A stretch of 30,144 nucleotides of DNA from a virus: IMG/VR virus record IMGVR_UViG_3300030090_003857, positions 1 through 30,144 of that record; one strand, given 5' to 3'. The translations under genes and the position numbers were made by a program. The notes under the pieces are model-generated. The model saw nothing but the letters and a program-made list of their open reading frames with translations, did no database searches and was not told where the DNA came from. Positions 895 to 24,220 of this stretch are shown piece by piece. The first letter of the stretch is position 1. Every line of letters begins with the position of its first letter.

Positions 895-3040
895 AATCAC
901 TAGGCTTTTCTTCGTAGAATGACCTATTATTACTCACATCAGTTGTTACAGTAAGTTTTGTTTGTTGAGGTGTATGTGTATTTATTTTAATCCTATTTTT
1001 TGCCAAATTAAAATTTATATTATCTATTGCAAGATGATTGGTTGCAGATTGGAATGTTGTAAAATTTAATTTAGGTAATGTCAATAAATCTACTGGCTTC
1101 AAAAATCCACTACTTTCTTTTATTTTTCTAAACGTACCAGTATATCTATCATTGTTAATTGCCAAATCATTTAATCTTAACATGCATGTAAGATTTTCTA
1201 GTGAGGTTTCTGATGTTATAGTGTCAAAATATTTAAAGGCAGATAAAGGAACATTACTAGAATTTGTCAAACAATTACTATATCTATCATCTCCCAACTG
1301 ACCAAATATTACATCTGCTTTTTTAATTACAGAACTATTAGAATTAATACTGCTTTCTATAATTGTTGTAGTGTTTACAAAGTATTTTAAATCAGTCGAA
1401 CTTTTAAAAACAAAATCATCAAAATACATTCTAAAGGTAGAATTATTATGTAACGCTTCATGTGACCTATATAATTTTACAGTTAATGTACCTGTAACTG
1501 GTGGTGCTGTAGGTTCAAATTCATTCAATACCCATTGTGCTGATAATGTATTAGCTATTGTATTTTGCCCTTGTGTAGATGATGTTACCCATTCATTTGT
1601 ACTTGCTTTCCAATAATAGAGTGTACCAGAGCCATCATTTAATTCTAATTGATACCTGATTGTATAACTTATAGAAGCTTGTGCAGGGTCTAATGCATAA
1701 TGTGCAAAACTAAAAGATAAACGACCAGAAGTTGTACCTATAAAACCTGTATTATTAGATGCAACTAAAGTATTAAATGATGTAGGTTCAGAACCCATTG
1801 TTAGTAAACTTTTTGTACCACCATATGGTTCAATACCAACTTGTGTTGTCTGTGCGCTATTAAAGGTAGATGCACTTACAATAATATTGGTATTACTTAA
1901 ACTTGTGCCTGATGAATCCTGTAATGTCCAATTCCCTGATGTTGGTAAAAAACCAACACCTGCAGAGTTTATAATTGTATCCTCAAAATTAAAATTCCTA
2001 AATGCACTTTTAAGTTTTAAATCTATTATTGTTTTATTTCTAATGGCAGGACTTTTAATAACTCTTTCCAAAGTCATACCTAATGGCTGTAATGTTCCTG
2101 ATGCACTTGTATCTTCAATATTGGTTATTGGTGTTGCTATTGAAAAATTTGAAAGTGCAGAACCTGTTTTATCATATGCCTTAAATTCTTTAGAATATGA
2201 GCCACCACCATCACTAAATGTAGTTAATGATAAAGCAGCATTATCTATAATTGTCCAACTACCCTCATGTTGGAATATTCTAGCATTAAAAATTTTAAGT
2301 AATGATTTTAAAATTTCTTTACAATTCAATGCATTACCATTTTCATCTTGAAATGCTGTAACATGATTTATAAAAATTGTTTCAAAAGGATTACCATTTG
2401 ATGTTAAAGAGCCAGTTGCTATTTTTGAATTATATCTACATAAAATTTTATATCCAAAATCTAAAGACTTACCGCTATCTCCAGCACCATTTTGGATATT
2501 TATATTTTTTAATGTTTCTCTGATTGCTTGAAAAACTGACTGTGTTTCTGTTGTAAGTTGGTAAGTATAACCATCTATTGTACCTATTAAATCAGATGCA
2601 TTTATTTCAACTAAAAACGGATATGACTGCATAGGTATTGTGAATTGGTCTTGTACAATAAATCCTGACCAATAATTTGTAAATACACCTGAACTACTTT
2701 CATAAGATATAACAACTTTAAATTCTCTATCGAATGTAGGTATAAGAAATTCAAGTCCTGACTCTTCCCATTTCCAAAAAGCAGACTCCCAGTTTGTTTC
2801 TTCATCTTCCCACTCATCACCACCAGTTGAATCATCAATATAAAATTGTAATTTACAATTACTACCGATTATTGGATTGAAATAATCCTCTGATTGTTTC
2901 CATGATATTTGTACAGGATTTGGCCCTAATGTTAAATTACTTGATGAAGTTCCAGTATATCCATCTTTAAATATTTGTATTCTAAATTTATTTTCGTCTA
3001 CATCGAAAAAATCAACTTCAAATCTTTTTCCGTAAGCCAT
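893..3040 (-). CDS. Tail-tip / baseplate hub protein (putative)
   Basis: Last gene of the leftward late operon and directly downstream of the tape measure, the usual place for distal tail and hub proteins that close the tail tube and carry host-contact parts. The 715-aa protein is beta-rich and has no signal peptide. Its N-terminal third (about 1-150) has a Dit/hub-like aromatic, acidic character. Around residues 240-270 the segment LLKIFNARIFQHEGSWTI resembles the hub segment common to tail proteins of Bacteroidetes phages. Residues after about 340 are Ser/Thr/Asn-rich and could be carbohydrate-binding-like jelly-roll domains. Its ATG overlaps the tape measure stop as TAATG, implying translational coupling. 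The family assignment is inference from position and composition; it could also be a receptor-binding tail protein. Confidence 0.65.
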   Translation of the reverse strand: MAYGKRFEVDFFDVDENKFRIQIFKDGYTGTSSSNLTLGPNPVQISWKQSEDYFNPIIGSNCKLQFYIDDSTGGDEWEDEETNWESAFWKWEESGLEFLIPTFDREFKVVISYESSSGVFTNYWSGFIVQDQFTIPMQSYPFLVEINASDLIGTIDGYTYQLTTETQSVFQAIRETLKNINIQNGAGDSGKSLDFGYKILCRYNSKIATGSLTSNGNPFETIFINHVTAFQDENGNALNCKEILKSLLKIFNARIFQHEGSWTIIDNAALSLTTFSDGGGSYSKEFKAYDKTGSALSNFSIATPITNIEDTSASGTLQPLGMTLERVIKSPAIRNKTIIDLKLKSAFRNFNFEDTIINSAGVGFLPTSGNWTLQDSSGTSLSNTNIIVSASTFNSAQTTQVGIEPYGGTKSLLTMGSEPTSFNTLVASNNTGFIGTTSGRLSFSFAHYALDPAQASISYTIRYQLELNDGSGTLYYWKASTNEWVTSSTQGQNTIANTLSAQWVLNEFEPTAPPVTGTLTVKLYRSHEALHNNSTFRMYFDDFVFKSSTDLKYFVNTTTIIESSINSNSSVIKKADVIFGQLGDDRYSNCLTNSSNVPLSAFKYFDTITSETSLENLTCMLRLNDLAINNDRYTGTFRKIKESSGFLKPVDLLTLPKLNFTTFQSATNHLAIDNINFNLAKNRIKINTHTPQQTKLTVTTDVSNNRSFYEEKPSD

Positions 3041-5139
3041 TATCCTGTAATTCTAGTTCTGAAATCGTCAGCCCTTTCAAGTGCTAAGACTAAATCTTGA
3101 CCTCGTAATACAAACTCTCCTTTAGTTCTACCACCCATCATGCCATCTAATTTATTCAAAGGTATGATAGCTTCTGCACCTGCCTCACCGACAAGACCGA
3201 TTGTTGGACCTGTAACAATACCACCTTTTGCAAATTTTGGAATTGATGCAAATGCCGCTAAAACACCACCGACCAATGTAGCTATAAATGCAGGTGTGGT
3301 AAAAATTGCTGCTGGTCCTGTTCCTGCACCACTTTCTGCACCACCTTTAATTGCAGAACCAGTTGCAGAAGCCGAATCCATTGCAAGTTTGCTTTTTAGA
3401 GCTGCTGCTTGTTTTGTTAATCCAGCCATTTGTAAACCTACTATTGTTGCTATAGTTTTAGCCTCATCTGCAAGTTTTTGTTTATTGGTCATTTTTCTAA
3501 TGATTGCATCTTGTATTACCATCTGTATTAATTTAATCATCATACTTACAATCTGATTAAAAAATTGGTTTGCACCCTCGTTTGCTAATTCAAAGCTACC
3601 AACAACATTTGTGGCAAATTGATTGAATGCACTTCCAACAACATTTGCCATTTCTTGACCCTTCTCTTGTATTTGTACCATTTTATTATTTAGTTTGGTC
3701 AATGGACTTTCTTCATCATCTGATACCAATGTTCCTAGACCTTCCGAAACTCCAATACTTGTATTTGTTCCAATACTTAATCCAAGTTCTTTTGCTTTTG
3801 TTATAATAAAATCCTTGACTGCATCTAAACCACTAGAAACACCATTTTGTAATGTTTCTTTTGTTACGTTTTTAAGTTGTCCATTTATTACATTTTCATA
3901 TCCATTTAAAAAGTCATTTGCAACATCTTCACCAAATCCTTGAACATCTTCACCAATATTGGTAAATGTTTCAGAAAAAATTGTTTGTATACCTTTTAAA
4001 TCACCTTTTAAAGCAGATACCACAATTCTGCCAAAACCACTGAATAACTCTACAATACTTTCGATACCAGTTTTTATTGCATTAAAAATTGTTTTAAATA
4101 CAAAAAATAAAGATTGTATACCTGCTCGAACTATCAGGCTTTGATTATAAATATTTATAAAATTATTTGCTATTGCCACCAGATTTTCAATAACAGTATC
4201 GCTGTTATCGTAAATTACCTTAACAAAACCCAAAAATCCAGCTACAGCCAAACCAATTGGTGATATTAACATTCCTAATGCTGTCATTATTGGTCCTAGT
4301 GCAAGTGCAATACCTCCTAATGCAACAACAAGTATTTTGGTTTCACCACTTAAACCCCTGAATCTTGTAATAAGATTTCCAAAAAATGTAATTATTTTTT
4401 GTATAACTGGCATTATTATATTTCCTAATTCTACAGCCAACTCTTCAAAAACACCTTGCAATCTTCTTGTTTGATTTGCAAAACTACCTGCTGTTCTTTC
4501 TGCATCTCCTTGTGCATCTGCAGTTCCTGCCATTATAATATTTAACCTTGCTTGTGCTTTTTGTGCCTCTGTTGCATTTTTAATGCCATCTTTGACACCC
4601 ATATTTAAAAGTTCTTGATTTAAGTTTGTTTGGTTTATTATAACACCAAACTTTCTCATTGTTTCATGATTACCTACAATGGCGGATTGTAATCCTTGCA
4701 TAACCTCTGCCTCTGCCATGTTGTTAAATGAAGCTAAATCTAAAGTTAGTTGTGTTAATGCTTTAGAAAACTCTAGACCCTCTTCACGTGCAAATCCTAA
4801 AGGAACAAATGTATCCTGTAGTGTACCCATGAACTTACGTAGGTCATTTGTAGAACGACCAATACGCTGTGCAGTAGCTTGAACAAAATCTTCTGCATCT
4901 CCTGTCAGTTCTTTGAATACAGCACTAAATTTTGCTTGTGTTTCTTCTGCATCACTAGCAGTCTTAACAAATTCACGACCAAGAAGTGCCAATGGTGCTG
5001 TAACACCTAACGTCAATGCCTGTCCTGTACTTTTAAGGCCACTTGAAAGTTTTTGGAATTGATTAGATACACCTCTAAGTCCTTTAGCAACTTGAGACGT
5101 ATCAACCTTTACTGGAATAACAAAATTACTGAGAGCCAT
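3040..5139 (-). CDS. Tail tape measure protein
   Basis: Sets tail length by lying inside the tube during assembly and is ejected with the DNA. The protein has 699 residues. The N-terminus (VIPVKVDTSQVAKGLRGV) and the following helical region (about 50-235, with SALTQL/ELANLG-type repeats and NQTRRLQG) match TP901-type tape measures. A strongly hydrophobic stretch lies at about 265-310. The C-terminal part carries a second hydrophobic segment and the conserved tail KGGIVTGPTIGLVGEAGAE. At roughly 1.5 Angstrom per residue the tail would be around 100 nm long (estimate from the family rule). It lies directly after the G/GT chaperone genes, as in lambda-like tails, and a TATATTTG promoter-like box lies 15 bases upstream of its ATG. 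Confidence 0.95.
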   Translation of the reverse strand: MALSNFVIPVKVDTSQVAKGLRGVSNQFQKLSSGLKSTGQALTLGVTAPLALLGREFVKTASDAEETQAKFSAVFKELTGDAEDFVQATAQRIGRSTNDLRKFMGTLQDTFVPLGFAREEGLEFSKALTQLTLDLASFNNMAEAEVMQGLQSAIVGNHETMRKFGVIINQTNLNQELLNMGVKDGIKNATEAQKAQARLNIIMAGTADAQGDAERTAGSFANQTRRLQGVFEELAVELGNIIMPVIQKIITFFGNLITRFRGLSGETKILVVALGGIALALGPIMTALGMLISPIGLAVAGFLGFVKVIYDNSDTVIENLVAIANNFINIYNQSLIVRAGIQSLFFVFKTIFNAIKTGIESIVELFSGFGRIVVSALKGDLKGIQTIFSETFTNIGEDVQGFGEDVANDFLNGYENVINGQLKNVTKETLQNGVSSGLDAVKDFIITKAKELGLSIGTNTSIGVSEGLGTLVSDDEESPLTKLNNKMVQIQEKGQEMANVVGSAFNQFATNVVGSFELANEGANQFFNQIVSMMIKLIQMVIQDAIIRKMTNKQKLADEAKTIATIVGLQMAGLTKQAAALKSKLAMDSASATGSAIKGGAESGAGTGPAAIFTTPAFIATLVGGVLAAFASIPKFAKGGIVTGPTIGLVGEAGAEAIIPLNKLDGMMGGRTKGEFVLRGQDLVLALERADDFRTRITG

Positions 5140-5166: not shown

Positions 5167-5870
5167 TTATTTAGTTTTGCCATTTTTCTCTTTTTCTTCA
5201 ATTTTTTTCAGGAACGTTTCATATTCTTTCCTTGTAGATTTTGGTCCTGATTCTCTTGTAATATTATCCTGTGGTAATTTAAAAAGTTGATGTGGTTTTT
5301 TTGCTTGATTGCTTTTAGAAATATTTGTATTGTAAATCATACAAGATACATATCTAAATTTTTCCCAATCTAAATTATTATTTATGTGAAAGTGTTCTGC
5401 AACAAGATAACATTCTTTAAATGTATATTTCCAAAAATCGTTTGGTGATATACCAACTTGACCTATGTAGTAGTCTAAGATGCTATTCCAGTCACTTATC
5501 TCGTTGGCTGTTGATTTTTTTTTTGTGTCCTTTCTATACCTGCATTGATTTCGTTTCCAAGTATCTTTGTTTCTGTCATAGCCTGCATGACATTTTGAAA
5601 CTCCTCTTGATTCAAATCATCTAACCAAGAACCAACCTTATAAATATTATAATCAATATCGTTACCCTCCTCTTGGTCATAAGCTAATAAGCCACAGTAT
5701 ATAATTGCCCTTATAGACGATAACTGTGACTTATCTGAAAAAACTTTTTCTAAATCTTGTAATCCAACATCTAAAACTTCTGTTAATGATGCCCAAAAAT
5801 TCATGCTGAAATGCATGGTTCTGTTTTTACCCCCTATTTTAAGAGAATAATAACCTCTTTGTTTATTCAT
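5167..5870 (-). CDS. Tail assembly chaperone GT, made by -1 frameshift
   Basis: Predicted 234-aa fusion of the G-like chaperone with a downstream T domain. Upstream translation runs in frame from ATG 5870. At the A10 run (5515-5524) a -1 slip moves ribosomes from the frame that stops at 5496 into one that stays open to TAA 5167-5169. The T part continues ...STANEISDWNSILDYYIGQVG and contains NDFWKYTFKECYLVAEHF, the Asp-Phe-Trp...Thr...Glu pattern seen in T domains of siphovirus chaperones, and ends in a lysine-rich helix. The T region has no start codon near its beginning; its first ATG is in the middle. This fits the lambda G/GT arrangement, in which GT binds the tape measure and recruits tube subunits. 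The adjacent tape measure supports this. The T frame is seen directly; the frameshift is inferred. Confidence 0.85.
5496..5870 (-). CDS. Tail assembly chaperone G-like protein
   Basis: The unshifted product is 124 aa. It follows the tail tube gene and precedes the tape measure, the conserved place of lambda gpG-like chaperones. The start reads MNKQRGYYSLKIGGKNRTMH. A helical middle has MNFWASLTEVLDVGLQDLE and an Asp/Glu-rich loop near 65-75. The C-terminal tail after the slippery run is only QKKNQQPTR, as expected for a short zero-frame end. Most ribosomes would make this form and a minority the GT fusion. It is found only during assembly in known systems, not in the virion. Confidence 0.85.
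   Translation of the reverse strand: MNKQRGYYSLKIGGKNRTMHFSMNFWASLTEVLDVGLQDLEKVFSDKSQLSSIRAIIYCGLLAYDQEEGNDIDYNIYKVGSWLDDLNQEEFQNVMQAMTETKILGNEINAGIERTQKKNQQPTR
5515..5524 (-). promoter_or_regulatory. A10 slippery sequence for -1 frameshift
   Basis: Ten consecutive A on the minus strand, read CAA AAA AAA AAT in the G frame. Slipping one base back gives AAA TCA ACA and enters the long T frame. The run contains the efficient A AAA AAA heptamer. Transcriptional slippage on A10 could give the same product. No convincing downstream pseudoknot was seen. Confidence 0.8.
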
Positions 5871-5901: not shown

Positions 5902-5909
5902 CAAAATTA
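5902..5909 (-). promoter_or_regulatory. -7 element TAATTTTG upstream of chaperone gene
   Basis: Minus-strand TAATTTTG matches TAnnTTTG exactly and lies 31 bases before the G-like start, overlapping the stop of the tail tube gene. It could give the chaperones their own transcript. No -33 element was identified. Confidence 0.4.
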
Positions 5910-6329
5910 GCTTGTAATAGTAACTGCACCTGTAGCAATGAAAGTTCCTGAATAACTTGCAGGGCTTTCCATTTCACTACTTACTTCCATTGAAGATATA
6001 AAACCTTCAACTGTATATACAGGGTCTCCTGTTGAAGCAGTACCAAATTTAGCTTGTATTTTAGTTCTGTTATTTAATATGTTAACAATAGATTCTGCAC
6101 CAAAACTATCATCGTAAGCCACTAAACCATCAAAACTAATTTCTATACTTCTTGTACCTGCAATAACTTCTCTATAACCACCGCTGTCTTTTGATGTACT
6201 TTCAGGTGTATCTAAAGTAAATGAAATTGAGGAACTCGTAGTATGTCCTAAATTAGTAAATGTAGAACCGCCATCTGACGATAATTTAAGCAATAAATTT
6301 GTTGCGTTAAAAACTCCACTTGTTGCCAT
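5907..6329 (-). CDS. Major tail tube protein
   Basis: The 140-aa, beta-rich protein has the length and pattern of TP901-1/lambda gpV-type tube subunits. Features are an N-terminal GVFNATNLLLKLSSDGG strand pair, a central REVIAGTRSIEISFDGLVAYDD segment typical of tube proteins (an 'insulin-like' GTRSIEISF strand then an acidic loop) and a C-terminal SMEVSSEMESPASYSGTF strand resembling the conserved end in which a fused strand completes the sandwich. It polymerises as hexameric rings around the tape measure. It precedes the G/GT chaperones. A TATCTTTG promoter-like box lies 28 bases upstream of the ATG, consistent with high independent expression. Confidence 0.9.
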   Translation of the reverse strand: MATSGVFNATNLLLKLSSDGGSTFTNLGHTTSSSISFTLDTPESTSKDSGGYREVIAGTRSIEISFDGLVAYDDSFGAESIVNILNNRTKIQAKFGTASTGDPVYTVEGFISSMEVSSEMESPASYSGTFIATGAVTITS

Positions 6330-6780: not shown

Positions 6781-9700
6781 TTAAATCTCTTTTTCTAGTT
6801 CTTTAACTCTAGCTTCAAGTTCTTGTATCGACTTTAGTAATATAGGTACTAACTTACTGTAATCTACTTGTTGCATATCTTCAGCATCTTTATCACCACT
6901 AACTGCTTGTGGCACTACTTCTTGAAGTTCGTGTGCCATAACACCGTAGCTTCTCGTATCATCTGCTTTCCATTTAAAGTCATACATCTTTATCTTCGAT
7001 GCAATATCTAAAGCATTGAAGTCTTTTAAATCTTCTTTTAATCTGTAATCAGAAGAAGTGTTGTATGACGTTGCAGAATCTAAAGTTTGTATTGTTCCAA
7101 CAGTACCGTTAGGGTTTTTAAAAGAAATACAAGAAGATGAGTTTGTTCTTTCTGCCTCTATTCTTGCACCAACGTTTATAGTACCACCTGCGGCATCATT
7201 AAACTTTATGTGAAGTCTACCATCAGGGCTAGTCTGATTTATTCCAACTGTACCAACACTTGTGAAACGTAGACGTTCAGAACCCGCAGTTGAAAATGCA
7301 ATAGTATCTGCACTTCCTGATGGTTGGTACATTCCAGTATTTACGTCATTATTAAAAGTATAGCCCGGACTTCCTGCCGTTCTACCACTATTTACAAGTT
7401 GTATATATGGTGTATGACTATTTGAGCTTGTTCTAATATCACCATCACTTGTGATACGTAGACGTTCTGATGAATTATATTCATCTGTAATTGCTAAAAA
7501 ACCATTAGCACCATTAGAAGTAATACTAAAGGCATTTGTCGTGTTTTCTGTTAAATAATAACCACCTGATGTTTGTGCTTGTATTTTTTGAGAAGAGTCG
7601 ATTCTGATTGCCTCACTTCCATTGACTGAAAAAAGCATAGAATTTAGGTTATGCTTATAAGAAATAACACCAATAGTTGAACCTGCGTCTGCGGCATCAT
7701 TTGAATCAGCAAAAGTTAAATCACAAGATTTATCATCACCTGAAGTAAGTGCTAATCTTGTATGACCAGTTGTTGTACCAACTTGTAAAATATTATCATA
7801 AGCACCACTAAATGGGTTAGGTATAGATGTAGTTCCAACTCCCACATAACCTAGAAAAGTTGCATTTTGTGATGTGTCTATTTCTAAAGCGGTTGTTTCA
7901 GCGTTACTTGCATTTTTAGTTGCAAAAGTTAATTTATCATTTGAGTTATTCGCATAAATACTTGCGGCAAAATTTGGTGTTGAATCAGTCCAAGCTATTT
8001 TATTATTTACGCCTGAGCCTTGTGCTAAAGTTAAACCATAAGCAGCAGTTTTACCACCTACACCTACTTTTCCTGCAAAAGTTGCATCACTAGAACTTGA
8101 TACAGATAATGGTGTAGTAGAATTTGTGGTATCAAATATCTCAAATGCACCATTATTATTTCTTAATCTAAAATCACTATTGCTATTTGTATCTACAAAA
8201 TCTATTGAAGGTACATCTTTACTTATAGCTATATCACCTGTAAAGGTAGCATCGCCACTTGTCGATATAGTTAATCTTGTTGCACTACCAGTTTGTACTA
8301 AAAAAGCACCACTAGAGCTACCAAGAACTGCTGTACCACTACTATCAGTTAATTCTATTTGTGAATCAGCAGATGATGATGTAAACCTTGCAGAAATTTG
8401 AGTTGAATTTACTGATAAAGGTCTCGCAGGGCTAGTCGTGCCTATGCCGATATTCGATGTACTTCTGTCAATAGTTAAAACTGTAGAGGCTACGCTTGAA
8501 AATGTTTTATCTAAATGTAAATCAGCACTTGCATCTAATCTAAAGCTATAATAATTTGTAGAACCTGCACCAAAGATAAGTGTACCATCAGACATTGCTG
8601 TACTGCCACCAAGAGAACTTTTAAGTATTGAAACAGAACCTGCAAAAGTTGAAGCACTTGAAGCACCATCCATACTTAAAATCGCAGTTGTATTATATCT
8701 TAAATTCATTACAGCACCATCATTGGTTATTGCCATTGGGTGCGTATCTCTAGTATCGTTTAATATTAAGCCTACTGGGTTTGCAGAAGTAATTTCTATT
8801 TTTCTTGCAAGGCTATTATTATCTTCAAATGATGTACCACCAAAGATTGCATCACCTGCAAAAGTTGCATTGTTAGAAGCTAAAACTATAGTGTTATTTC
8901 CAGAGCCATCTCTTATAGTTACATTACCAACATTACCATCAATACCACCCATAAACATATCGCCATTGTTATCAATGCCAATCATTCTCAATGCTGTAGA
9001 ACCATTGCTATGAGTTCCTTCAAAATATTTGTTATTAGCTACTCTTGCACTATCATTAAATATTCCTTTACCTGCAAACGTAGCACCTGATGAATTTAAT
9101 TTTAATTGATTGACTTCTGAATTATTTACAAGGGTAGTAAGCAATAATTGACCATCCTCTGCACCTGCTGTACTATCTTCTATTTGACCAAATATACTTG
9201 CATATCTTGTATTATTACCTGAAGCGTCATTGCCATCAAAATTAATAAATGAAAATGTGTTTCCATTACCATTATCATCTGAACGTAGAGTTAATCCTGC
9301 ATCACCAGTACCATCATTTTCAAATAATATTTCATTTGAACTAGAAGAATCTGCAAAAACGTGAAGCAAACTAGATGGACTAGTTGTTGAAATTCCTACC
9401 GAACCTCCAGCAGTTATTGTAACTGCATTATTAAGTTTCATATCTAAAAAGCTAGATGTTCCTCTGTTATATCCTTGTGCAAAAACTACACCTCCACCAG
9501 CAGAATAACCAGCTTCAAAACCTTGATTTGCATCATCACCTACTCTAAAATCTCCACCTTGTACATCTAATTTCATCCCAGTTGTTATAGATGCCGTACC
9601 AATACCTACGTTAGTATCAAATCTTATAGCACCTGCACTATCATTATCAGAAAACCTTAAATCTGCACCACTACCATAAATATCCCATTTACCAGTACCA

Positions 9701-10878
9701 CTACTTGCATATAATCTTACATAATCGCCACTAGATGAACTTGTTGATATAAACTTTTTAGAAGTTGCAGTAACATCACCTGCAAACGTTGCATTTTGTG
9801 ATGAATCAAGTGTAAGTGCAGTTGTCGAACCAGTTGTGAAACCTAAACTATCGGCACCTACTCGATACATACCAGTATTATCATCACCATAGAAAGTGAA
9901 ATCAGGCGCACCTGCATTACCATTATTACTTGCGCCTATTTGACCATTAACTGATAATTGTACTGCTGAATCAGGTACAAGACCAACACCCAATAAACCT
10001 TGAATTTGAATGTTACCACTTGATTCACTTATGACAGAATCAGTAATCGTATCTGTGTCAGACCACTTTACAATCTTACCCGCAGTCCCGCTACCATCCA
10101 CAGCACCTGCACCAATAGGTATCTCGACAACTTGACCAGAAGATGTTACACCTAATCTTTGTGTTACTGTGCCAGTAATACTGCCACTACCATATTGATG
10201 TAATCTTACTCCTGTTGTCTGTGCAAAAGTAAATTGTGTTGAACCACCAACACCAAGCTGTATGTTATCAGCAGATGTAGTTCCTGCAATATAAACATCA
10301 CTTGTATTGCCCCATAAAAGCTTATTAGAATTATCAAGAAGAATATCTCCACCTGATATTGTTAATTTAGAAGATGGACTTGTAGTGTTTATACCTACAT
10401 TTTTTGAAGATTCTTTGGCAAATAAAATAGTATTACCGCCATCATCTGTTATATTTATTCCTGCATTACTAGCACCTGTTTCATAACTCTTTAAGAATAA
10501 AATACCAGTACTATCATCAAAACCTATTTGGCCGCCATCTGATGTGGCATTACCTGTGTTGTTAGTTTTAAATCTTAAATCAACTGATGTGTTAGAACCA
10601 CCATCTAAGGTTAATGTAGAACCACTCGTTGCTACGCCATTGGAACCACCGATTAATAATTGGTCCTTAACCCAAGTGTCATTTTCAACTGTTAAACTAA
10701 AAGAAGTATTTGGCGTAACACCTATACCTAGACCTCCTGTAGATAAGTATAATGGAGAATCAGTTCCACCACCATCAGTAAGTCTTTTACCACTCGAGCC
10801 AATAATTGCATTATCAGTTGTTTTTAAAAGTCCTAAATACGAGGATGCTATAGTATTACCAGTAAGTGATGTACCCAT
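6781..10878 (-). CDS. Tail fibre with S74 intramolecular chaperone
   Basis: Long (1365 aa) host-recognition fibre. The N-terminus (GTSLTGNTIASSYLGLLK) resembles the attachment module of many marine phage fibres. The middle is a Gly/Ser/Thr/Asn-rich beta repeat region with seven TFAG-type units and several VGIxTTSP units, expected to form a trimeric beta-shaft. Two NTGMY segments resemble each other. The C-terminus is a Peptidase_S74 / endosialidase chaperone domain: SSDYRLKEDL gives Ser1276 and Lys1281, the spacing of the known Ser-Lys dyad that cuts the chaperone off after trimerisation. It is followed by MYDFKWK, YGVMAHELQEVVP and a C-terminal coiled coil (about 1336-1365). A TATATTTG box lies 16 bases upstream. 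Receptor unknown. Confidence 0.92.
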   Translation of the reverse strand: MGTSLTGNTIASSYLGLLKTTDNAIIGSSGKRLTDGGGTDSPLYLSTGGLGIGVTPNTSFSLTVENDTWVKDQLLIGGSNGVATSGSTLTLDGGSNTSVDLRFKTNNTGNATSDGGQIGFDDSTGILFLKSYETGASNAGINITDDGGNTILFAKESSKNVGINTTSPSSKLTISGGDILLDNSNKLLWGNTSDVYIAGTTSADNIQLGVGGSTQFTFAQTTGVRLHQYGSGSITGTVTQRLGVTSSGQVVEIPIGAGAVDGSGTAGKIVKWSDTDTITDSVISESSGNIQIQGLLGVGLVPDSAVQLSVNGQIGASNNGNAGAPDFTFYGDDNTGMYRVGADSLGFTTGSTTALTLDSSQNATFAGDVTATSKKFISTSSSSGDYVRLYASSGTGKWDIYGSGADLRFSDNDSAGAIRFDTNVGIGTASITTGMKLDVQGGDFRVGDDANQGFEAGYSAGGGVVFAQGYNRGTSSFLDMKLNNAVTITAGGSVGISTTSPSSLLHVFADSSSSNEILFENDGTGDAGLTLRSDDNGNGNTFSFINFDGNDASGNNTRYASIFGQIEDSTAGAEDGQLLLTTLVNNSEVNQLKLNSSGATFAGKGIFNDSARVANNKYFEGTHSNGSTALRMIGIDNNGDMFMGGIDGNVGNVTIRDGSGNNTIVLASNNATFAGDAIFGGTSFEDNNSLARKIEITSANPVGLILNDTRDTHPMAITNDGAVMNLRYNTTAILSMDGASSASTFAGSVSILKSSLGGSTAMSDGTLIFGAGSTNYYSFRLDASADLHLDKTFSSVASTVLTIDRSTSNIGIGTTSPARPLSVNSTQISARFTSSSADSQIELTDSSGTAVLGSSSGAFLVQTGSATRLTISTSGDATFTGDIAISKDVPSIDFVDTNSNSDFRLRNNNGAFEIFDTTNSTTPLSVSSSSDATFAGKVGVGGKTAAYGLTLAQGSGVNNKIAWTDSTPNFAASIYANNSNDKLTFATKNASNAETTALEIDTSQNATFLGYVGVGTTSIPNPFSGAYDNILQVGTTTGHTRLALTSGDDKSCDLTFADSNDAADAGSTIGVISYKHNLNSMLFSVNGSEAIRIDSSQKIQAQTSGGYYLTENTTNAFSITSNGANGFLAITDEYNSSERLRITSDGDIRTSSNSHTPYIQLVNSGRTAGSPGYTFNNDVNTGMYQPSGSADTIAFSTAGSERLRFTSVGTVGINQTSPDGRLHIKFNDAAGGTINVGARIEAERTNSSSCISFKNPNGTVGTIQTLDSATSYNTSSDYRLKEDLKDFNALDIASKIKMYDFKWKADDTRSYGVMAHELQEVVPQAVSGDKDAEDMQQVDYSKLVPILLKSIQELEARVKELEKEI
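7841..9805 (-). repeat. Seven TFAG-type protein repeats in the fibre shaft
   Basis: Within the fibre gene seven degenerate units of the form (D/N)ATF(A/T/L)G recur, each at the end of a Ser/Gly/Asn-rich block. At DNA level the plus strand shows related words such as CTGCAAAAGTTGCAT. They alternate with VGIGTTSP-like units. The pattern fits repeated beta-strand turns and probably grew by duplication; spacing is irregular, so this is not a tandem satellite. Confidence 0.75.
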
Positions 10879-22055: not shown

Positions 22056-22913
22056 TTATTTTTTATATGTCTCCTGTATTATACGAGGAACTGTGTTGTT
22101 CCAGTTGATTCTATGGTGTAATCTTGGATGTATTGTACCAACTAATGATACCTTAACGCTAGATGGATTAAATATTAAAGTGTAAAAAGATTTTACGTAT
22201 GTACCACCATCAAGATAAAATTCTGTAAGACCACCAGTATTTTGTTGTGTTTGTAATTGATTCAATCTTAATTCACATATCGTAAGAAATAAATCGCCTT
22301 TTGAACCAAAATGTACATACGTATTTACATCTTCGTTTATTCTACCTATAAATTGAAATCTTCTTTCTGTAGAACACACAAAAAAATTCATTGCTTTTCT
22401 AGATAATTTTTTTTGAAAAACACTACACCCTGCACCACCAATAAAGTCACCATCTTGTGCAATACACAATGTTTTTGCTTTTATAGATTTATAATATTTA
22501 AGAAGTACATTGAATTGAAAATCTAAATCTTTGCATAATCTTTGTTTTGTGAGATAATTATAATTATTATCAACTGTATATCTAAAAGTCTTGTAATCGT
22601 CGTCTAAGACAATAAAATATTTATAACCCAATTCCTTTGCAATATCAAATACTGCGTTTCTAGCATAAACTACGACACGCTTATCATCAAAATTATCAGC
22701 AATGTCAAATGTATTTACATAATCATCTTTAGAAAAGACATAAACATTTTTAAATTGTTTTTTATAGTCATTTAGATTTTTATCATCATCTGAACATATT
22801 AGATATATTTCACCTGTATAACCTTGTTTTATCAGCGTTTGATAAGTGTAAACTTTGTCTGCCCTTCCATATGAAAGAATAAAAACGACATATTCTTTTT
22901 TATTCATATTCAT
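22056..22913 (-). CDS. TAGT-like glycosyltransferase
   Basis: The 285-aa protein resembles the TET-associated glycosyltransferase (TAGT) family described in phage base-modification systems. Seen: an opening beta strand with VVFILSYGRADKVYTYQTL (SYGR at 14-17), then EIYLICSDDD, a VVVYARN motif (81-86), and IVLDDDY (103-107), a DxD-like metal/sugar-nucleotide site. The C-terminal half has VHFGSKGDLFLTICELRL and GGTYVKSFYTLI. Members would glycosylate hydroxymethylated bases in DNA, but no hydroxylase or nucleotide hydroxymethylase is in this window. It overlaps the ParB-like gene by 14 bases (starts at 22913 or 22907), directly upstream of the terminases. Function is inferred from family memory and motifs. 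Confidence 0.7.
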   Translation of the reverse strand: MNMNKKEYVVFILSYGRADKVYTYQTLIKQGYTGEIYLICSDDDKNLNDYKKQFKNVYVFSKDDYVNTFDIADNFDDKRVVVYARNAVFDIAKELGYKYFIVLDDDYKTFRYTVDNNYNYLTKQRLCKDLDFQFNVLLKYYKSIKAKTLCIAQDGDFIGGAGCSVFQKKLSRKAMNFFVCSTERRFQFIGRINEDVNTYVHFGSKGDLFLTICELRLNQLQTQQNTGGLTEFYLDGGTYVKSFYTLIFNPSSVKVSLVGTIHPRLHHRINWNNTVPRIIQETYKK

Positions 22914-23643
22914 CTAAATATTTATCAAGTATTTCATTTCTTAATTGTATGTATCCAAGTTTAATTGCTTTATCAAAATCAATAATTATTAATGCACTTT
23001 CTTCCATTAATTCTTGTATTTCTTTTGATGAATGTGCATAAAAATCTGCAATTTTTGTATAATCAAAAACCATGTGCCTTGTTGCACAATCCATAAGAAA
23101 ATTTTTTTCATTTACCGTCAGATTTGTTTTTTTTATTTTATCTAATAACTGTTTGTATTTATTCTTATCAATTAGTTCTTTAATGTCAGGTTTATTATCA
23201 GATGGTTCATAAATTGGTGCATTGATTTTAGATGTATATGGTATTTCATCTCTATCAAATTCCATTTGTTCATCAATATTGACTGATGGTATTTCTAAAC
23301 CCCAGTTATCTAAACTTTGAGACAACCATTCATTTCCAAGTGAATCCCAATCCCAATCACCAAAAGAAATATTATCCTTAATGATAAATTCTTGTTTTTG
23401 TTCCTCTGTCCAATTTTGTGCAATATCTACTGTAATTTTATCAAATCCAGCCTTTTGTAATGCCTTTAATCTCATATTACCACCAAGAACAACCATATTT
23501 TCGTCAACAACCAAAGGTCTTTTATCCAACATTTCAGGAAAATCAATTATTGATTTTACCAATTTATTAAATTTTTTCTTTGATATAGTTCTTGGGTTTT
23601 GTGTGTTTGGTTTTATATCTTTTATTTTAACTTTTTTTCTCAT
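22900..23643 (-). CDS. ParB-like nuclease-domain protein
   Basis: The 247-aa protein has the ParB/Srx N-terminal fold: KIKDIKPNTQNPRTISKKKFNKL, VVDENMVVLGGNMRLKALQKAG (GGNMR at 54-58 in place of GHRR) and a following helix. Residues about 150-247 form a second helical domain (APIYEPSDNKPDIKELI..., CATRHMVFDYTKIADFYAH, LIIIDFDKAIKLGY) found with phage ParB-like proteins. Such phage proteins are often neighbours of base-modification or terminase genes. Role unknown; possible nicking, CTP/ATP-dependent DNA binding or guiding modification. Overlaps the glycosyltransferase, so the two are probably coupled. Confidence 0.75.
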   Translation of the reverse strand: MRKKVKIKDIKPNTQNPRTISKKKFNKLVKSIIDFPEMLDKRPLVVDENMVVLGGNMRLKALQKAGFDKITVDIAQNWTEEQKQEFIIKDNISFGDWDWDSLGNEWLSQSLDNWGLEIPSVNIDEQMEFDRDEIPYTSKINAPIYEPSDNKPDIKELIDKNKYKQLLDKIKKTNLTVNEKNFLMDCATRHMVFDYTKIADFYAHSSKEIQELMEESALIIIDFDKAIKLGYIQLRNEILDKYLDEYE

Positions 23644-23925
23644 CTAACAATATTTTGTAACAATATTAGAATATTTTATTTTTTTTCCAGCAATGTTTTC
23701 TTTAAAAAAAAAATACAAATACCATAACTCTTTTAAAAATTTTTCTACCTCTGGCTCGTTTCTATAATAATTATCATTTACAGGAAAAAGTTCTGCCAAT
23801 GCATAAATCATCTTATATGTTAATATATCATCATTTTCATCAAATAATCCTGCCTTTGCTTTTTTTCTATTGTGTTCTATATAATCACTAAAAATCAAAA
23901 ATAATTCAGTTTTATTTTTCCTCAC
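23644..23925 (-). CDS. Hypothetical 93-aa protein
   Basis: Not recognised. It starts at GTG (no ATG is available near the N-terminus) and overlaps the previous gene by 14 bases, then ends directly against the ParB-like start. It has LFLIFSDYIEHNRKKAKAGLF and a middle with YALAELFPVNDNYYRNEPEVEKFLKELWYLYFFF, so it is aromatic and helical. The position next to the ParB-like protein suggests a linked function, but this is only context. Confidence 0.6.
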   Translation of the reverse strand: MRKNKTELFLIFSDYIEHNRKKAKAGLFDENDDILTYKMIYALAELFPVNDNYYRNEPEVEKFLKELWYLYFFFKENIAGKKIKYSNIVTKYC

Positions 23926-24220
23926 AGCCTAAAAGTAGAATAAAATCTTCTCTTTTTATAGTTCTGTTTTGATATTTATATTTTTTTTTATTTTTTGATT
24001 CTATTAAAGAAAGAGACATTTCTTTATCAAAATAAATTTTTTTACTTCTGTCAATATCAAAAAAAACCTTTCTACCGTAATTTTTTTTGAATACAGTAAA
24101 AAGGTTTATTATGCTTCGACAACAATTATCTGTTGTTCCATATATTTCATTTTGATTATCTACATAATAGTATCTAGTCTTTAATTTTTTTTGTTTCTGA
24201 TACCTCTTCTTTTTTATCAT
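23912..24220 (-). CDS. Hypothetical 102-aa basic protein
   Basis: Not recognised. It is strongly basic (MIKKKRYQKQKKLKTRYYYVDNQNEIYGT...), with alternating strands and NRTIKREDFILLLG at the end. Small basic proteins of this kind can bind nucleic acid. The overlap with the upstream gene (47 bases) is long; the start could not be moved without losing the basic N-terminus. Part of the leftward operon. Confidence 0.55.
   Translation of the reverse strand: MIKKKRYQKQKKLKTRYYYVDNQNEIYGTTDNCCRSIINLFTVFKKNYGRKVFFDIDRSKKIYFDKEMSLSLIESKNKKKYKYQNRTIKREDFILLLGCEEK

Follow-up and report, generated by a model that had tools for sequence, protein, structure and literature searches.

How is the second reading frame between the tail tube and tape measure genes of this virus expressed, and which machine makes the change of frame? 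All features of the locus lie on the minus strand of the window (the whole 30,144-nucleotide stretch analyzed here, a 30-kb virus contig), in the order tail tube, G, T, tape measure:

5907..6329, minus strand: major tail tube protein, upstream of G (PF06199, E 1.8e-14; phrog_1407, E 1.7e-24)
5496..5870, minus strand: gene G, predicted tail assembly chaperone; zero-frame product of 124 aa, TAA stop at 5498-5496
5515..5524, minus strand: candidate recoding run of ten A's (A10); zero frame CAA AAA AAA AAT, with an in-phase A_AAA_AAA at 5523-5517
5452..5508, minus strand: weak candidate stem; 5' arm GCCAAC at 5508-5503, 3' arm GUUGGU at 5457-5452
5170..5517, minus strand: T extension; -1 frame, 116 codons, without a start of its own, completing a predicted 234-aa GT fusion
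3040..5139, minus strand: tape measure protein, downstream of T (phrog_991, E 2.4e-26)

The final codons of G read ACA CAA AAA AAA AAT CAA CAG CCA ACG AGA TAA. Measured from stop to stop (5616 to 5170), the -1 frame is open for 149 codons, 116 of which are counted from the slip site; 118 open codons arose by chance in 1 of 20,000 draws under a dinucleotide model. No ATG, GTG or TTG occurs in the T frame of the window from -60 to +33 nt around the G stop. The first-pass annotation had described the G frame as running through A10 to a stop at 5496, and the -1 frame as open for about 115 codons up to the tape measure with no start near its beginning; this description is borne out, its coordinates being right to within a few bases.

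Searches with G and T in IMG/VR, wider profile scans and three genome loci yielded 423 loci with a match to G, 419 of which contain both parts; in the other four, the contig stops at the G stop. Relative to G, T is read in the -1 frame at each of the 419 loci, corresponding to 242 distinct sequences, among which neither a fused G-T gene nor a T in any other frame was found. A start codon near the junction is absent from 213 of the 242 distinct relatives, and 237 carry an in-phase GGGAAAN or A_AAA_AAN heptamer within the G-T overlap. In the first set of relatives (131 loci), such a heptamer occurred in 0.7% of control windows inside G, and GGGAAA sites were in the correct phase in 67 of 67 cases. 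Pairwise dN/dS in the T frame between the window and members of its clade, counting the comparisons in which saturation did not prevent an estimate, ranges from 0.03 to 0.13, which indicates strong purifying selection on T. The conserved -1 frame, the phase-exact heptamers and the low dN/dS together indicate that T is a real coding extension of G, and we are highly confident that the two are joined into a GT fusion by a -1 change of frame.

Two other explanations of the overlap can be weighed against these data. An assembly or sequencing indel might have split a single gene, and homopolymers are indeed error-prone. All 242 distinct sequences, drawn from many separate metagenomes, nevertheless show the split, and over half of them lack a long run at this position; GGGAAAG at the same site already refutes the idea, whose probability we consider negligible. 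Alternatively, T might be a separate gene or an untranslated relic, its overlap with G being an accident of compact packing, as might be thought from the T relative of Cellulophaga phage phi18:2, which has its own ATG upstream of the run. In 213 of 242 relatives no start codon lies close to the junction, the T frame is under purifying selection, and 237 of 242 relatives have phase-exact heptamers; all of this speaks against a separate gene or relic, which we regard as very improbable. Homologues with an independent T, which the first-pass annotation had named as the observation that would contradict a fusion, were looked for, and all 242 distinct relatives have T in the -1 frame, overlapping G.

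As to the identity of the two proteins, G of the window matches phrog_2115 ('tail protein', E 7e-10), as do all 14 G relatives scanned, and T matches phrog_16333 ('unknown function', E 1.6e-8), as do all 17 T relatives scanned. Foldseek comparison of the AlphaFold model of G (pLDDT 76; 84 for the T model) with viral models returned many phage proteins whose annotation is tail assembly chaperone (E 7e-4 at best); the GT protein of phage N15 was a weak match (E 0.048). Unnamed phage proteins make up most of the T matches and several of the better ones for G, and the fold matches of both include proteins of Cellulophaga phage phi18:2. No Pfam chaperone family scored above cut-off for G or T, PF11836 reaching only E 0.049, in four relatives. 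A search of the PDB by VIA-align gave weak, unrelated matches for G (Z ≤3.1) and none for T. Searching cultured phages by tblastn with G, T and the tail tube protein of the window produced no match; the T of a relative reached Cellulophaga phages at E 0.5, a result upheld by a T profile (phi18:2, 37.5 bits; phi39:1, 20.4 bits). No related G or T was seen in the gene tables of Bacteroides and Flavobacterium phage genomes, inspected by eye.

The -1 frameshift at GGGAAAG that produces GT alongside G in phage lambda is well known, as is its wide conservation. The locus resembles that of lambda in gene order, in its small G, in a startless T in the -1 frame and in a slip site at the 3' end of G, and its relatives have GGGAAAG in the same phase; it differs in its A10, in having no Pfam chaperone match and in showing only the weak N15 fold match. 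On the evidence of sequence and gene order, G and T are a lambda-type G/GT tail-assembly-chaperone pair. The frames, the gene order and the relatives thereby agree with the first-pass proposal of such a pair, joined by -1 recoding at an A-run. Very probably, then, phrog_16333 is the family of T domains and phrog_2115 that of the partner protein G.

The slip sites of the family fall into several classes. Among the 242 distinct relatives, GGGAAAG is found in 123, GGGAAAC in 1, A9 in 62, A10 in 31, A6 in 18 and A7 in 2, so that more than half use either GGGAAAG or an A_AAA_AAG with six A's; the remaining 5 have another heptamer or none at the overlap. In these five (L128, L201, L253, L263 and L272), T is in the -1 frame without a clear GGGAAAN or A-run heptamer, four of them reading GCA AAG followed by CCG or AAT and one reading GCA AAG TAG. 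On a tree of 150 representatives, every member of the window's clade has A9 or A10, at least 16 changes are required over all slip-site classes, and at least 11 between long-A and other sites; midpoint rooting gives 12 separate long-A clades. A loose Shine-Dalgarno-like motif lies upstream of 22 of 59 long-A sites; a role as stimulator was set aside for it, because Shine-Dalgarno sites are lacking from the genes of the window.

These classes correspond to two styles of signal: GGGAAAG and A_AAA_AAG are usually accompanied by a downstream hairpin, and A9 and A10 mostly are not. In the usual stem-loop of GGGAAAG relatives, the 5' arm begins 6 nt past the heptamer and the 3' arm lies in the codons of a conserved T motif, IGQVG. 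Median arm pairing energy is -17.1 kcal/mol at GGGAAAG sites (z -3.45; 74% below -12), -12.2 kcal/mol at A_AAA_AAG sites (50% below -12) and -6.1 kcal/mol at A9/A10 sites (z -0.22; 3% below -12), so that a cut-off of -12 kcal/mol in duplex energy leaves 97% of A9/A10 sites without the hairpin. The difference between GGG and long-A arms is significant by a Mann-Whitney test that ignores shared ancestry (p = 6e-14), and independent pairs contrasting run class with stem on well-supported branches number only three, too few for a phylogenetic test. Among 38 aligned GGGAAAG sequences the stem covaries, its outermost pair being G-C in 21 and C-G in 13; cells with a double change number 21, versus 8 in shuffles, and 85.5% of cells are paired, falling to less than 50% when the stem is slid by a column. 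RNAalifold returned no consensus structure for the same 38 sequences, at least five of which have a different first arm. With 72-nt windows, which span both arms, a peak of folding coincides with the slip site in the GGGAAAG and short-A classes alone; z-scores from 50-nt windows reveal neither a clear nor a localized difference between classes.

The window's own candidate stem consists of 6 bp (GCCAAC/GUUGGU) and begins 6 nt past A10. Its duplex energy is -12.9 kcal/mol, against -4.4, -5.5 and -6.3 kcal/mol in the near relatives L037, L038 and L008, in which it is not kept, and at z -0.6 it folds no better than shuffled sequences. The first-pass remark that no obvious pseudoknot follows the run was a fair one.

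Ribosomal slipping requires six or seven in-phase A's, and every A9 or A10 run also holds an in-phase A_AAA_AAA. Of 95 slip-site runs of seven or more A's, 93 consist of nine or ten, and none consists of eight, or of eleven and more. The other coding sequence of the same loci (220 kb) contains 40 A7, 24 A8, a single A9 and no longer run; elsewhere in coding sequence, only 1 of 48 in-phase runs of seven or more attains nine. A homopolymer of at least nine A or T inside coding sequence, one criterion for a transcriptional slippage site, is present in the window (A10) and in its A9/A10 relatives. The commonest A9 arrangement, with two A's before the first codon boundary, occurs in 24 of 40 A9 representatives; there a ninth A creates no additional slip heptamer, and tandem slipping by the ribosome therefore does not explain it. 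Nine is a published threshold for RNA polymerase slippage: in many bacteria, selection against A or T runs is evident from that length (PMC1088944). Sliding by E. coli ribosomes is slight on A9 and A10 but robust on A11 (PMC4363877). In a reporter, the longer the run the higher the efficiency, from 10% for A7 to 40% for A9 and 63% for A11, in a system that does not identify the machine (PMC3711429). Run length appears, from these distributions, to have been selected at the polymerase threshold and not at the heptamer minimum; the distributions could equally have arisen through selection on slip rate, for which longer runs may have been favored whatever the machine.

The run-length pattern, the missing hairpin and the published thresholds together suggest polymerase slippage at A9 and A10. 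This case is not decisive, because efficiency rises with length, the contrasts number only three and every A10 contains the in-phase heptamer. Also counting against it are the 50-nt windows without a clear class difference, the weak stem of the window, the possible ATG start of T in phi18:2 and two further coding runs of 9-10 in small early genes of the window. We nevertheless consider it fairly probable that a lambda-type GT fusion is produced via A10 mainly by RNA polymerase slippage. We infer the production of GT, its ratio to G, the slipping machine and the roles of the proteins as follows. Usual expression would yield the 124-aa G, and in a fraction of expression a shift of -1 at A10 would append the 116 codons of T to give the 234-aa GT fusion. 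RNA polymerase stuttering on A10, adding one A or dropping two in a share of transcripts, would be the main route to this shift, and a ribosomal slip on A_AAA_AAA might help. By analogy with lambda, G may form a coat on the tape measure, and T may serve to recruit the tail-tube protein.

The same fusion might be made by the ribosome alone, through a tandem -1 slip of two lysine tRNAs on A_AAA_AAA, as at the GGGAAAG of relatives, longer runs being simply better sites that have no need of a hairpin. Ribosomal slipping is the rule in this family, because GGGAAAG and the six-A A_AAA_AAG, sites too short for polymerase slippage, together account for over half of the relatives, most of them with a hairpin 6 nt downstream; A10 itself includes the in-phase heptamer, and the window has a weak stem at the expected place. 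Were the ribosome the only machine, however, A7 and A8 should be equally good, yet they are found at 2 and 0 slip sites as against 62 for A9 and 31 for A10, while being the common long runs in other genes; the absence of the hairpin from 97% of A9/A10 sites counts against it as well. We hold a purely ribosomal mechanism to be possible, and on the doubtful side. The first-pass annotation had left the choice between ribosomal and transcriptional slippage open, a caution that is supported here, as A10 fits both. A broader proposal, on which we are evenly divided, is that several exchanges have taken place, within one family of environmental phages, between a ribosomal mode (GGGAAAG or A_AAA_AAG plus hairpin) and a polymerase mode (A9 or A10 without hairpin), the window being in polymerase mode.

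Parallels exist for parts of this proposal. In E. coli, dnaX employs ribosomal frameshifting (A_AAA_AAG plus a stem), and in Thermus thermophilus it employs transcriptional slippage at A9 (PMC3711429, PMC1088944). Here, too, two machines may effect one frame change, with a nine-A run as the transcriptional form; dnaX, however, is a cellular gene, and the present case is a family of phage tail genes whose tree requires 11 or more changes between long-A and other sites. The accessible text of two further reports describes variable slip heptamers in the g-t genes of the haloarchaeal viruses HCTV-1, -2 and -5 (PMC5009743) and A7 slip sites in Paenibacillus larvae phages (PMC6256562). The heptamer thus varies among these phages also, A-type sites included; as far as that text goes, it describes neither a run of nine or ten nor a switch between hairpin-aided and hairpin-free sites within one gene family.

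Among cultured viruses, Cellulophaga phages phi18:2 and phi39:1 carry a related T domain and have A9 and A8, respectively, at the G-T overlap; they differ from the window in that T is in the +1 (-2) frame, not the -1 frame, and in that the T of phi18:2 has a possible start of its own. Such a frame at A9 or A8 can be reached by stuttering of the polymerase but not by a simple -1 slip, which speaks for transcriptional slippage. In phi18:2 (KC821627; L428, 2095-2806), G ends in A9 and the ATG of T lies upstream of the run, and T could be made by reinitiation or by slippage. In phi39:1 (KC821626; L429, 1157-1883), the annotated start of the T relative is an ATG inside the conserved domain, and the annotated gene is probably truncated. 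The archaeal Methanoculleus virus L4768 (L430, 1820-2433) has a tape measure protein 40% identical to that of the window over 290 aa, and its G ends in GAA AAA AAC CGG TGA, followed by a 94-codon -1 frame, which suggests a G/GT pair in a methanogen virus.

A Bacteroidota host is plausible for the window, because 30 of its 31 genes lack a Shine-Dalgarno sequence, its nearest terminase is from Bacteroides phages (41%), its capsid matches include Flavobacterium phages and its T has Cellulophaga relatives. Three metagenome bins with related loci have discordant taxa and are uninformative on the host. The first-pass annotation had viewed A10 as an adaptation to an AT-rich Bacteroidetes host; the host part of that suggestion is plausible, and AT-richness as the cause of A10 is not supported, GC content being equal across slip classes (medians of 0.340 in GGGAAAG relatives and 0.341 in A-run relatives, p = 0.72).

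Elsewhere in the window, a 1365-aa repetitive protein with a C-terminal intramolecular chaperone (Peptidase_S74, E 1e-12) is encoded at 6781-10878, just upstream of the tail tube module, and is probably a tail fibre. At 22056-22913, adjoining a ParB-N-like gene (22900-23643), lies a TET-associated type glycosyltransferase (PF20691, E 1e-28), whose possible function is the modification of bases in the phage DNA. Two other homopolymers, an A9 (23981-23989) in the mRNA of a small ORF (23912-24220) and a U10 (23704-23713) in the mRNA of the ORF at 23644-23925, are possible slippage sites or mark possibly misannotated small genes.

A-type slip sites in tail chaperone genes are already known, and the G/GT pair itself is ordinary, as long-tailed phages can be expected to have one; what is not ordinary is that signal types have been exchanged repeatedly within one family. 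A literature search, covering few subscription journals, turned up no description of transcriptional slippage in a tail chaperone gene, nor was repeated slip-site switching within one family found in the literature searched. The comparison gives probable names to two protein families, T for phrog_16333 and G for phrog_2115. Searches with G and T did not lead to any close relative in culture, and phages that have the pair are therefore probably annotated with T missing or truncated. With one gene and one frame change served by two signal styles, it becomes possible to test if tail assembly tolerates polymerase slippage in place of ribosomal frameshifting, and if the length of the run has been adjusted to RNA polymerase. 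If the proposed switching is true, ribosome and polymerase would be interchangeable ways of setting the ratio of one structural protein.
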